A DNA stretch of 64,000 nt from Eubacterium sp. (GTDB taxonomy: Bacteria; Bacillota; Clostridia; Lachnospirales; Lachnospiraceae). Shown piece after piece: positions 54,475 to 64,000 of this stretch. The stretch covers positions 62,001 through 126,000 of the forward strand of contig JAILRB010000021.1 in the NCBI GenBank assembly GCA_024698585.1, given 5' to 3'. Under the pieces are notes generated by a model. It saw only the letters and a list, made by a program, of their open reading frames with translations. It had not been told where the DNA came from and made no database searches. Each line of letters starts with the position of its first letter. Position 1 is the first letter of the stretch. Position numbers and translations under genes: made by a program.

Positions 54475-55320
54475 CTACTGTTTATTGGAAATCAACTTTA
54501 GCGAAAGGGGAAGATTTCCAATAATCATTCTTCTGCCAATCACATTTGCATGATCAAAGCTGGCTGTACTAAGAACCCGAATCGGGTCATTTTCCAATTC
54601 TCCCAATCCAATCGTTCCTAGCAATTCCTTGTTATACATCAAATATAGATTTTCTTTCTTCTGACCGGAAAGACGTTTTTTCAGATTTTGTCTTTTTCCC
54701 TTGGACAAGGTCAAAACGAAAATCCCCGTAACTTCTTCTGAAATAGCATCCGTAACCGATTCAATCCGGAAGTCGGAAATTTCATTCCATTCCAGGACCC
54801 TCTGGTAATAGTTCTTTCCCGACCGGAAAAACTGCTCTGACATTTGTTCTTCCATCGTAGGTGCCTGTTCACATTCCATGCAGACATAAACATCTTCTAC
54901 TCGGGTCAGCGTTTCGATATTTGCCTCTCCGGCATAATTTCGATCCATTCGTACTTCAATGGTGTCATCGCTTAATTGTTTTACTTCTGCTTTTTCATCC
55001 CAGGACTGTGCCCTGTATTTCAATCGGTCCATCGTCTGACGCAATTCTTCTTCCGTATAGTTCTCGGATTGAATCCGATAGGTCAGTACGGCATAAAGTT
55101 TAGGTTCCTTGGTTGTCGTTTCTTGTGGTTTCTGCGTCATCGATGAAACCCATTTTATCGGATTTCCAAAAGAGAAGGCTCCCATATATATTCCAAAAAA
55201 GATTGCCGTAATTGCCGCCAATATTCCCAAGAATCGATAGGGCGTCTTTCCTTTACGCTCTGTTTCTTCCATCCGTTCTCCTTTATCCCATGGTTCTTTC
55301 AATATCAATAATACTGTCAA
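54475..55320 (-). CDS. Membrane-anchored protein with diverged SecD P1-like extracytoplasmic domain
   Basis: One TM (FLGILAAITAIFFGIYMGAFSFG); YRIQSENYTEEELRQTMDRLKYRAQSWDEKAEVKQLSDDTIEVRM resembles SecD 'tRakLekRv...I.VeiPG'; GIFVLTLSKGKRQNLKKRL and STASFDHANVIGRRMIIGNLPLSLKLI resemble the SecD P1 C-terminal half. Confidence 0.6.
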   Translation of the reverse strand: MTVLLILKEPWDKGERMEETERKGKTPYRFLGILAAITAIFFGIYMGAFSFGNPIKWVSSMTQKPQETTTKEPKLYAVLTYRIQSENYTEEELRQTMDRLKYRAQSWDEKAEVKQLSDDTIEVRMDRNYAGEANIETLTRVEDVYVCMECEQAPTMEEQMSEQFFRSGKNYYQRVLEWNEISDFRIESVTDAISEEVTGIFVLTLSKGKRQNLKKRLSGQKKENLYLMYNKELLGTIGLGELENDPIRVLSTASFDHANVIGRRMIIGNLPLSLKLISNKQ

Positions 55321-60070: not shown

Positions 60071-62326
60071 TTATTCTGCTTTCTTTTCTGCACCCTTCTT
60101 CATTACATACCATAATGAACCTGTTACACAAACAGATGAGTACATACCGGCAATAACACCAACCATCAATGGTAATGTAAATTCTCTGATAGAAGATACA
60201 CCCATGATGAAAATCATAAAGATCATAACGAATGTTGTTAATGTTGTGTAGATACTTCTTGTTAATGTCTGTGTAATACTTGCATTAACCACATCAATCA
60301 ACTGATCACCACGCTTCATGGACGCTCTGTTTTCACGAATTCTATCGAAGATAACGATTGTGGCATTGATAGAGTAACCGACGATAGTCAACAGACAGGC
60401 AATGAATGTTGTACCAACAGTAACTCTTGAAATACCATAGAATCCTACAACAACTAATACGTCATGTACTAAAGCAACAACCGCTGCCAAAGCGAACTGG
60501 ATGTTCTTGAATCGAATCCAGATGTAAATCAACATACAAATTGTAGCAATGATTGTAGCGAGAACAGCGTCTCTTCTCATTTCTGAACTGATTGTATCAG
60601 AAATTTCTGTATTACCGAAGTTTTCTTCTTTATCGACTGCCTTAAAGTTCTTAACTAAAGTTTCTCTAACTTTCTTGAATTCTTCTTCACTTAATGATCT
60701 AGTCTTAATCTTATATAACTTTCTGTTTGCAGTATCCTGCTGTCCCTGAACGTCTGTTGTATTTAAGATTTTTTCAAGTTCCGGCTTAATGGAATCATTG
60801 AAGTAGTTTACATCATATTCTTTTGCGAACTCAACATCGATGGAGATACCACCCTTGAATTCGATACTGTAATCGAATGCTGATCCCTTTGATGCATGGA
60901 ATGCGATGGAACCTAAACCAATTACAATAGTAACAATTGAAACGGTAAATAAGATTGCTTTCTTCTGAACGAATTCAATGGTCTTTCTGATTTTTTCCTT
61001 ACCATAGAATTTTTCTGTCTGGAATCCCATGTAGTACAGTAACCAAACAAGTGCTCTGGAAATAACAAGTGATGCGAACAACTGAACTAAAATACCGATA
61101 GCAAGTGTTGTTGCAAATCCCTGAACTGTTCCTGAACCTCTCCAAAGAAGTACTAATGCAGCAATTAATGTTGTGATGTTACCATCCACGATTGCTGATG
61201 TAGCCTTCTGGAAACCTGTATGAATTGCATTCTGAACCTGACGTCCTGCAGCAATTTCTTCACGAATACGAGCGTAAATAATTACGTTCGCATCTACTGC
61301 CATACCGATATCCAGGATAATACCTGCGATACCAGGAAGTGTTAATGTCAAATCAAATCCGTTTAATGCTAAAAGCATCATTTCAACATATGCTACTAAT
61401 GATAATGCAGCTGCAAGTCCCGGAATTCTGTATACAAATAATAAGAAGATACAGATAATAATAAATCCGATTAAACCAGCCTTCAAACTCTTAGATAATG
61501 CATCATTACCAAGCTGAGCACTCTGTACGCTATGGCTTAATTCCTTGATTTCAGCTTTTAATCCACCGATACGAATGTTTGTAGCAAGGTCATTTGCTTC
61601 ATCAATAGTCTTAAAACTACCACTGATTTCACAAGAACCACCTGTAATTGCTTCATTAATGTTTGGTGCTGTGATTACTTCGTTATTGTAAATAATGTAG
61701 TTCTGCTTTCCAACATTTGCAGTTGTCATGTCAGCGAATTTCTTTCCACCTTCACTGGTAAATGTTACATTAACTACATTTTCAAGTTCGTTCGTCTTAT
61801 CATCGGCTCTGCTGGCACCCTTTGCATCAGCAACTTCATCACCGGTCAACCAAACTTTGTAGTATCCTTCCTGATACTTAATGTAGTCTTCATTCTTTAA
61901 CTCTTCTTCTGTCGGTGTGTAACCGTCTTCCGCAGCGGTAGTGAAGTACATCTTACCCGGCTTACCTAATTCATCAACAGCTTTATCAGCATCATATGCA
62001 CCTGGAATTTCAACAGTGATTCTGTTGTCACCTTCTCTGTATGCTGTTGCTTCAGAACTGAACTTGCTCTGAACTCTCTTTTCAAGCTTTGCTCTGGTAT
62101 CTGCAATATCCTTCTGGCTGGCACCCTTTTCCACTTCATAAGTAATACTTGTACCACCCTTTAAGTCTAATCCCTGTGTGATATAAGAGGCTTTACCTCT
62201 GTCTCCGATTCCAGGAATTTTCTTTGGGATACCCCACATTACAATTGCACCCGCAACGACTACAAGTACCATGCATAAAATAAAGCATGAGATACTTTTT
62301 GCCTTACTCATTGTTTTAAACTTCAT
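60071..62326 (-). CDS. secDF: Protein translocase subunit SecDF (fused)
   Basis: SecD half: GLDLKGGTSITYEVEKGASQKDIADTRAKLEKRVQSKF...NEAITGGSCEISGSF; SecF half: FDYSIEFKGGISIDVEF...VGYSINATIVIFDRIRENR. Confidence 0.95.
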   Translation of the reverse strand: MKFKTMSKAKSISCFILCMVLVVVAGAIVMWGIPKKIPGIGDRGKASYITQGLDLKGGTSITYEVEKGASQKDIADTRAKLEKRVQSKFSSEATAYREGDNRITVEIPGAYDADKAVDELGKPGKMYFTTAAEDGYTPTEEELKNEDYIKYQEGYYKVWLTGDEVADAKGASRADDKTNELENVVNVTFTSEGGKKFADMTTANVGKQNYIIYNNEVITAPNINEAITGGSCEISGSFKTIDEANDLATNIRIGGLKAEIKELSHSVQSAQLGNDALSKSLKAGLIGFIIICIFLLFVYRIPGLAAALSLVAYVEMMLLALNGFDLTLTLPGIAGIILDIGMAVDANVIIYARIREEIAAGRQVQNAIHTGFQKATSAIVDGNITTLIAALVLLWRGSGTVQGFATTLAIGILVQLFASLVISRALVWLLYYMGFQTEKFYGKEKIRKTIEFVQKKAILFTVSIVTIVIGLGSIAFHASKGSAFDYSIEFKGGISIDVEFAKEYDVNYFNDSIKPELEKILNTTDVQGQQDTANRKLYKIKTRSLSEEEFKKVRETLVKNFKAVDKEENFGNTEISDTISSEMRRDAVLATIIATICMLIYIWIRFKNIQFALAAVVALVHDVLVVVGFYGISRVTVGTTFIACLLTIVGYSINATIVIFDRIRENRASMKRGDQLIDVVNASITQTLTRSIYTTLTTFVMIFMIFIMGVSSIREFTLPLMVGVIAGMYSSVCVTGSLWYVMKKGAEKKAE

Positions 62327-62405
62327 TTTCTAACCTCTTTCTAAGCCAATCGACTTATTTTATATCGCCGTCTCCTCCGGCTGTCCTTATACGGCTAAAA
62401 CCGCT

Positions 62406-63155
62406 TTATTTTTTTGTACCACAATCAACTTTCTTAACTTCTGCTTTCAAGCATCCGCTATTGATTTGTGCCGCAATCACCGATGCATGTCCAATGGAAT
62501 CACAACCACTGATTACACACGCACCACAGGTAATCGCTTCAGCAATCATCGGCGAAACAACCTCTTGTTCATCCAAGATAATGAAATTCTGAACTCCTAC
62601 ATTGGATGATGTCATTTCTGAAAACTTATCTGCCCCCTCACTGTTAAACGAAACATTGATGACATTCTCTGTTATACCCTCGTCATCTATCTGGGTGGCA
62701 GCATCTGCTTTTTCCACATCGTTTCCTGTAAGCCAAACCTTGTAATAAGTTTCGTTCAACTTGATATAAGATTCACTTTCCAGTTCTTCCTTTGTCGGTT
62801 CATACCCGTCTTTTGCTTTTATGGTAAAAAACAGTTTTCCCGGTTTCGCAAGTTCATCCAGTTGTTCTTCTATGTCATACTTTTCCGGAATATTGACTTT
62901 GATCTTATCATCTTCCTGAAGGTATGCCTTCGCATCCGGTGTATACAAAGATTTTGCTCTCTTTTCAAGTATCGCTCTGGTATCTTCCAAATCCTTCGGA
63001 TTGGTTCCTGCCTGAACTTCATAAACAACCCATGTTCCCTTTTTCATGCCGTCGTTTACCTTGGCTTCTTTCTTTTCCGGTGTTCCACATGCTGTCAAAG
63101 CACCAATTGACAAAATCATTGTCATATATAAAATACTAAGCTTTATCTTCTTCAT
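62406..63155 (-). CDS. Stand-alone SecD P1-domain lipoprotein
   Basis: Lipobox GALTACG; body VYEVQAGTNPKDLEDTRAILEKRAKSLYTPDAKAYLQEDDKIKVNIPEKYDIEEQLDELAKPGKLFFTIKAKDGYEPTKEELESESYIKLNETYYKVWLTGNDVEKADAATQIDD aligns nearly end-to-end with the P1 region of the adjacent SecDF and stops before the TM bundle. Confidence 0.88.
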   Translation of the reverse strand: MKKIKLSILYMTMILSIGALTACGTPEKKEAKVNDGMKKGTWVVYEVQAGTNPKDLEDTRAILEKRAKSLYTPDAKAYLQEDDKIKVNIPEKYDIEEQLDELAKPGKLFFTIKAKDGYEPTKEELESESYIKLNETYYKVWLTGNDVEKADAATQIDDEGITENVINVSFNSEGADKFSEMTSSNVGVQNFIILDEQEVVSPMIAEAITCGACVISGCDSIGHASVIAAQINSGCLKAEVKKVDCGTKK

Positions 63156-63166
63156 TTTTATCCCCT

Positions 63167-64000
63167 TTATTCATCGGCCAAGGCCGCTTTAATCATAATT
63201 GAGCACTCTACTCTCTTCCGTTCCATTTCACACCCGACTTCATAAGCATCGTTAATATTTCCATGGAAGTTATAGGAGTTTGCTGCACAACCGCCGCTGC
63301 AATAGAATCTTGCAAAGCAGTTCTTACACTTTTCTTTCGTGTATACGTTACAACAACCGAATTCTTTCACGATTTCCGGTTTTGTAATTCCATCATCCAC
63401 ATTTCCCAGCAGGAATTCTTCATTTCCAACAAACTGGTGACACGGATACAAGTCACCCCAAGGCGTTACCGCCAAGTACTCTGTTCCGGATCCACAACCG
63501 GACAGACGCTTGTAAACACAAGGTCCCTGCTGCAAATCAATCATGAAGTGGAAGAAGTTAAATCCTCGTCCTTCCTTCTCACGCTTGATGTACTCCAGTG
63601 CCAGTTTATCATATTCCTCTAAAATCTGAGGAAGATTTTCCTCACGAATGGAATATGGATCATCATCCGGTCCTACAACCGGTTCAATGGACATCTGTTT
63701 AAATCCTAAATCTGCAAAATGTTTTACATCCTCTGAAAAATCCAGATTGTTTCTTGTGAATGTTCCACGAATGTAATAATTCATCTGGTTTCTGCTCTCC
63801 GCAAGTTTCTGGAACTTCGGAACAATCAAATCGTAACTTCCCTTTCCGTTACGGAACGGTCTCATTCGATCATTGACTTCCTTTCGTCCATCCAGACTGA
63901 TTACAACATTGGACATTTCTTTATTCAAATATTCCATGATTTCATCATTGAGCAACACGCCATTGGTGGTCAATGTGAATCGGAACTTTTTATTGTTCGG
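63167..64000 (-). CDS. scfB: Thioether cross-link-forming SCIFF peptide maturase (radical SAM/SPASM), N-terminus beyond the window
   Basis: RFTLTTNGVLLNDEIMEYLNKEMSNVVISLDGRKEVNDRMRPFRNGKGSY...SGCGSGTEYLAVTPWGDLYPCHQFVG...CCNVYTKEKCKNCFARFYCSGGCAANSYNFHG; adjacent to secDF as expected for SCIFF loci. Reading frame is open to the window edge. Confidence 0.88.
   Translation of the reverse strand, partial: PNNKKFRFTLTTNGVLLNDEIMEYLNKEMSNVVISLDGRKEVNDRMRPFRNGKGSYDLIVPKFQKLAESRNQMNYYIRGTFTRNNLDFSEDVKHFADLGFKQMSIEPVVGPDDDPYSIREENLPQILEEYDKLALEYIKREKEGRGFNFFHFMIDLQQGPCVYKRLSGCGSGTEYLAVTPWGDLYPCHQFVGNEEFLLGNVDDGITKPEIVKEFGCCNVYTKEKCKNCFARFYCSGGCAANSYNFHGNINDAYEVGCEMERKRVECSIMIKAALADE

Follow-up and report, generated by a model that had tools for sequence, protein, structure and literature searches.

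The closest described relatives of the protein reported here are SecD and SecDF. Their P1 head binds translocon-engaged substrate, and the P1 domain of SecD crosslinks to the chaperone PpiD (PMC7793623). An Asp required for proton transport is located in the transmembrane bundle (PMC9508474). No paper describing stand-alone P1 proteins was found in a literature search that left subscription journals mostly outside its reach. The window (the whole 64,000-nucleotide stretch analysed, from the Eubacterium sp. genome G000) encodes such a protein, termed P1lipo, between a SCIFF peptide maturase gene (scfB) and secDF. The features of the locus are collected in Table 1.

Table 1. Features of the P1lipo locus, in window coordinates
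Feature	Position	Strand	Evidence
SecDF, complete, 751 aa, parent of P1lipo	60071..62326	-	Pfam and NCBIfam SecD/SecF models; tree
Ancestral spacer between scfB and secDF, retained 3' of P1lipo; almost the same sequence as in sister G009	62327..62386	-	junction alignment
Second copy of scfB 3' end (AAAGCGGTTTTAGCCGTATAA), 15/21 identical, directly after P1lipo stop	62387..62407	-	junction alignment
Stand-alone P1 lipoprotein (P1lipo), 249 aa	62406..63155	-	ORF; PF22599 60.8 bits; 46% identity to SecDF P1
Mature P1 domain (base and head), without H+ channel or TM helices	62409..63086	-	AlphaFold pLDDT 88.5; Foldseek; collinear with 3aqo
Predicted lipoprotein signal peptide up to lipid Cys23 (MKKIKLSILYMTMILSIGALTAC)	63087..63155	-	agrees with PS51257-type rule
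Ribosome-binding site AAAGGGG of P1lipo	63162..63168	-	sequence
SCIFF peptide maturase scfB, C-terminal part	63167..64000	-	TIGR03974 499.7 bits, cut-off 425
scfB 3' end, first copy of 21-nt imperfect repeat (AAAGCGGCCTTGGCCGATGAA)	63170..63190	-	junction alignment with G009, G007, G006

Architecture of P1lipo and its locus

The P1lipo reading frame is intact and opens with ATG. The original prediction gave the same coordinates, but the gene lies on the minus strand, and the plus-strand frame across the interval contains four stops. The N-terminus carries an n-region Lys, a hydrophobic core and the lipobox MKKIKLSILYMTMILSIGALTA directly before C23 (LTA/C23). A PS51257-type lipobox rule picks out Cys23 and is matched by 0.25% of shuffled P1lipo N-termini, and by these criteria P1lipo is a predicted bacterial lipoprotein, in agreement with the lipobox first noted.

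BLASTP aligns P1lipo with the downstream SecDF at 46% identity (254 columns, E 8e-70, 216 bits), its identity to the P1 of this SecDF being 46-48%, and the mature protein is collinear with the whole SecDF P1 domain. The collinearity originally proposed thus holds, and all of the shared stretches quoted in its favour were found. The two SecD P1 models suggested as a check gave different answers: SecDF_P1_head (PF22599) scored 60.8 bits against a cut-off of 27, whereas SecD_1st (PF21760) reached 12.7 bits, below its cut-off of 27. The ORF stops after P1, and no Pfam match was found in P1lipo to SecD_SecF_C (PF02355), which covers the transmembrane bundle and its proton-related residues, to Sec_GG (PF07549, GxDLxGG; P1lipo has NDGMKKG versus GLDLKGG), or to SurA_N or a rotamase domain. 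The NCBIfam secD model TIGR01129 scored 60.2 bits, below its cut-off of 244.4. An AlphaFold2 model of P1lipo, built from an alignment with 37 SecDF P1 regions, had a mean pLDDT of 88.5 and a pTM of 0.73. When this model was compared with the PDB using Foldseek, SecDF P1 entries and the holotranslocon were the only matches at E < 0.001 (best 4.6e-15). TM-scores to PDB SecDF P1 structures were about 0.5 with a large rmsd, which we tentatively read as a changed base/head orientation. At the sequence level, P1lipo covers the P1 domain crystallised alone in 3aqo (E 1.9e-15).

On the minus strand the gene order is aminopeptidase, SCIFF precursor, SCIFF maturase, P1lipo, SecDF, recJ-like, apt, relA, a second P1-like protein, an MBL hydrolase and hemZ; neighbours without a family search are named for what we take them to be from their sequence. 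The scfB gene runs past the window edge (whole gene L004:4168-5526, 452 aa), and the SCIFF precursor gene (46 aa) lies upstream of it at L004:5621-5806. The scfB stop is separated from the P1lipo start by 11 bp, and no strong minus-strand promoter was found between the two. The highest-ranking promoter-like sequence in this orientation is upstream of the SCIFF precursor (11/12 matches plus a TG extension), and this site and the short gap make it likely that P1lipo is co-transcribed with scfA-scfB and secDF. The second P1-like protein (54475-55320, minus strand), between relA and the MBL hydrolase, is TM-anchored and not lipidated. It has no Pfam match but is recognised by profile comparison with SecDF P1 (99.5%, E 1e-22), and its AlphaFold model (pLDDT 72) has a P1-like order of elements; it is fast evolving and occurs only in G000, G009, G007 and G006.

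P1lipo is a real, lineage-specific gene, and we are highly confident of its architecture and local origin. The notion that it is an assembly or annotation artefact can draw on the draft state of the genome (65 contigs) and on the absence of an ortholog, but is barely conceivable: the gene sits deep within a 141-kb contig, its identity to SecDF of only 48% shows that it is no mis-assembled repeat, and it has an intact ORF, its own ribosome-binding site and a lipobox. A frameshifted or broken secD, against which the original prediction was to be judged, is ruled out because the SecDF downstream is complete.

Origin, age and selection

The scfA, scfB and secDF genes are adjacent in all 20 relatives examined, none of which has P1lipo; the gene interrupts this order in the present species only. 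Within the genus 1 of 23 genomes has it, and searches of 60 relatives, of these 23 and of 392 genomes of the order yielded no ortholog. A plain protein scan of genome contigs with P1lipo found no relative, and a contig scan with a small alignment returned only SecDF, from the closest named relatives, the rumen/gut MAGs Lachnospiraceae RUG11188, Eubacterium sp. Tb.RUG.99 and RUI397. P1lipo is absent even from the sister genome G009, whose SecDF is 98.4% identical.

In the phylogenetic tree P1lipo groups with the SecDF sequences of G000, G009, G007 and G006 (100/100) and falls nearest to those of G000 and G009, although with weak support (92/31). The repeat copy that follows the P1lipo stop, succeeded by the ancestral spacer, is the arrangement expected from a tandem duplication extending from the end of scfB to the P1 region of secDF. 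Such a local duplication, from the scfB 3' end into secDF, would have given rise to P1lipo, with the transmembrane part subsequently lost and a lipoprotein signal peptide acquired. The homology of this lineage-specific paralog to the P1 domain of its own SecDF is demonstrated, and its local origin is well supported.

A recent event confined to G000 does not fit the synonymous divergence, which is saturated between P1lipo and SecDF (pS 0.755) but only 0.08 between the SecDF genes of G000 and G009; P1lipo therefore probably predates the split of these two genomes. A similar pS (0.746) separates the G000 and G007 orthologs of the second P1-like gene. The likeliest history is that P1lipo was present in the G000-G009 ancestor and was then lost in G009; the alternative is that G000 acquired it horizontally from a relative outside the sample. 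In G009 the scfB stop is gone and the frame continues into the spacer (GATGAA/GGACAG), whereas at this place G007 has TGA and G006 has TAA. The SCIFF maturase of G009 (L058:5579-6961) is extended by 8 aa as a result, probably a scar left when P1lipo was lost.

Because no ortholog exists, selection on P1lipo could be gauged against SecDF alone, giving a pN of 0.304 and a pS of 0.755. Neutral simulation to the 247 differences observed in 207 codons produced a mean of 6.7 stops, and none of 1000 runs was free of them, as P1lipo is. This substitution pattern demonstrates purifying selection on P1lipo. Constraint was counted over SecDF columns conserved at 90% or more. Of the 10 such columns at residues 31-44 (GxDLxGG, the TM1-P1 junction) P1lipo keeps 1; of the 43 in the head and the remaining N part it keeps 31. 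A preferentially conserved head is not claimed, the base-versus-head Fisher p of 0.02 rising to a non-significant 0.31 without the GxDLxGG region. The P1 lipoproteins of G535 and G1024, described below, likewise lack the GxDL part, as do the full-length ones of G236 and G233.

Detached P1 proteins in other genomes

Further detached P1 proteins were sought in other genomes with PF22599 and P1. G535, from another family of the same order, encodes a P1 lipoprotein (L117:3963-4703) 70 bp upstream of secD that is 75% identical to the P1 domain of its own SecD. G1024, from another family of the same class, has one (L126:5019-5741) 54 bp upstream of secD; it is 48% identical to its own SecD, a grouping weakly supported in the tree (73/63). 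In AU tests a single origin of the three secD-adjacent lipoproteins was rejected (p 3e-63), and so was a shared origin of the full set of six (6e-52), these p values being indicative since the groupings were chosen after the data were seen. The secD-adjacent P1 lipoproteins are thus convergent rather than one family by descent.

Lipoproteins with P1 are also found elsewhere in the genome, not beside secD, in G236, G233, G646, G999, G1085 and G1118, and G726 has two lipoproteins (L129:3691-5088 and L131:101-1498) that fuse SurA_N to a P1 head, all domains above Pfam cut-offs. More than one PF22599 match was present in 9 of 399 phylum-wide genomes (G000 included), several of these being second full secD genes; detached P1 proteins are sporadic. 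Short P1 candidates on L112, L114 and L115 were rejected as cut or broken secD(F) genes. An ORF in G549 (L132:3831-4367), 98 bp upstream of secDF, has a TM1-like anchor and a P1 head with the base missing, and looks like an intermediate stage. Other architectures include zinc-ribbon proteins with a DUF4190-like TM segment and a P1 head (L108:4949-5692, L109:4607-5365, L111:4096-5094 and L130:4636-5379), the genes on L108, L109 and L130 adjoining a putative restriction-modification locus. A second, divergent SecDF type (GIDIRGGVEAVFEP) was seen in several Lachnospiraceae (L082, L084, L092, L102 and L103).

Possible role and comparison with known systems

P1lipo would be exported by Sec, lipidated on Cys23 and held on the outer leaflet, presumably near the translocon, with its substrate-handling P1 fold retained. 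With neither a TM channel nor GxDLxGG it would be unable to use proton flow, and since it keeps P1 without the TM bundle it cannot be a proton-driven motor. It would instead bind chains emerging from SecYEG/SecDF passively and stop their back-sliding or early misfolding, which would help a late export step. We accordingly prefer for P1lipo, at about an even chance of being right, a role at the Sec exit as a passive holdase or an aid to late translocation. This role is supported by retention of the whole P1 domain in a confident model collinear with the 3aqo crystal, as well as by purifying selection and the convergent P1 lipoproteins upstream of secD; the SurA_N-P1 fusions of G726 add circumstantial support for passive capture. 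Against it, presence in a single genome of the genus marks P1lipo as dispensable, a plain holdase leaves four new cysteines unexplained, and to our knowledge a passive P1, unlike SecDF, has no energy source. The original prediction of a tethered, proton-uncoupled P1 paralog acting as an export chaperone or SecDF modulator remains the most natural reading of function, strengthened by the secD-adjacent lipoproteins and SurA-like fusions.

The second half of that prediction is the main rival to the holdase role: P1lipo might compete with or dock on SecDF P1, or on YajC, YidC or SecY partners, and so tune the motor without itself handling substrate. This is somewhat unlikely. Its identity to its own SecDF P1 and its adjacency to secDF fit such a role, as do the lipoproteins of G535 and G1024, each of which stems from the SecD of its own genome, as expected if a partner match is needed. 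Adjacency is equally a plain consequence of tandem duplication, however, and most other P1 lipoproteins found are not beside secD. A transient, weakly useful or neutral duplicate, the product of frequent tandem duplication of the secD 5' region with capture as a lipoprotein and later loss, would account for the species-level distribution and for the probable loss in G009, with its read-through of the old scfB stop. We consider it unlikely, in that pN/pS well below 1 and zero stops at saturated synonymous divergence indicate that P1lipo has been long maintained, and lipidation has evolved repeatedly and independently.

Two narrower proposals have less in their favour. Besides the lipid Cys23, P1lipo has five cysteines (C210, C213, C218, C235 and C245) versus 0.56 expected (Poisson P 3e-4). 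The extra cysteines of the original prediction were said to be absent from the SecDF copy; this is so for four, whereas C213 is the counterpart of the one Cys of SecDF (GSCEISG). That these residues confer a redox or metal-binding role is suggested by their excess and by a sub-threshold zinc-finger match at 213-225 (E 0.077), but is quite improbable: the match is far under the cut-off, and such cysteines are not general in secD-adjacent lipoproteins, that of G535 having the lipid Cys only. As the clusters are not common to other P1 lipoproteins, no general role is claimed for them. The further proposal, that P1lipo assists release or export of a SCIFF (ranthipeptide) product, can draw on its position immediately after scfB and before secDF. 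This is very improbable given its distribution: a survey for co-occurrence found P1lipo missing at the 20 other scfA-scfB-secDF loci, where the SCIFF peptide is near-identical, and in G535 and G1024 scfB is not beside the secD-adjacent lipoprotein (L117, L126). No papers linking SCIFF and SecD were found in the literature search.

P1lipo alone would be a curiosity; what merits testing is that P1 has become lipidated next to secD several times independently. The independent detached copies in other Firmicutes suggest that P1 may serve, and be useful, without its proton-driven part. Detached and tethered P1 domains that are under selection and have arisen several times offer a direct test of whether P1 needs proton flow, and if a detached P1 aids export without the channel, then P1 is of use simply by capturing substrate. 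We tentatively suggest, holding this more loosely than the holdase role, that SecD P1 is possibly a separable export-chaperone module that Firmicutes repeatedly detach and lipid-anchor, giving proton-independent late-translocation factors, some with a SurA-like fusion.

Compared with the P1 domain of SecD/SecDF (PF21760 and PF22599; PDB 3aqo and 3aqp), P1lipo shares the fold and extends over both base and head in full. Its nearest relative is its own SecDF, and SecD/SecDF P1 has also been crystallised alone (3aqo). It differs from SecD/SecDF in lacking TM helices, P4, the proton channel and GxDLxGG and in having a lipid anchor and four new cysteines. The lipoproteins of G535 and G1024 resemble P1lipo in having a lipobox and a complete P1 directly upstream of secD, but differ in having originated separately, each from its own SecD, in having separate secD and secF genes, and in lacking adjacent SCIFF genes. 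Those of G726 share with P1lipo a lipoprotein architecture with an outer-face P1 head but carry a SurA-like N-terminal domain that P1lipo lacks. Extracytoplasmic chaperones of the PrsA, PpiD and SurA types resemble P1lipo only in its proposed role, the ATP-independent handling of exported chains; their folds are unrelated, and P1lipo has neither a peptidyl-prolyl isomerase nor a SurA_N domain.
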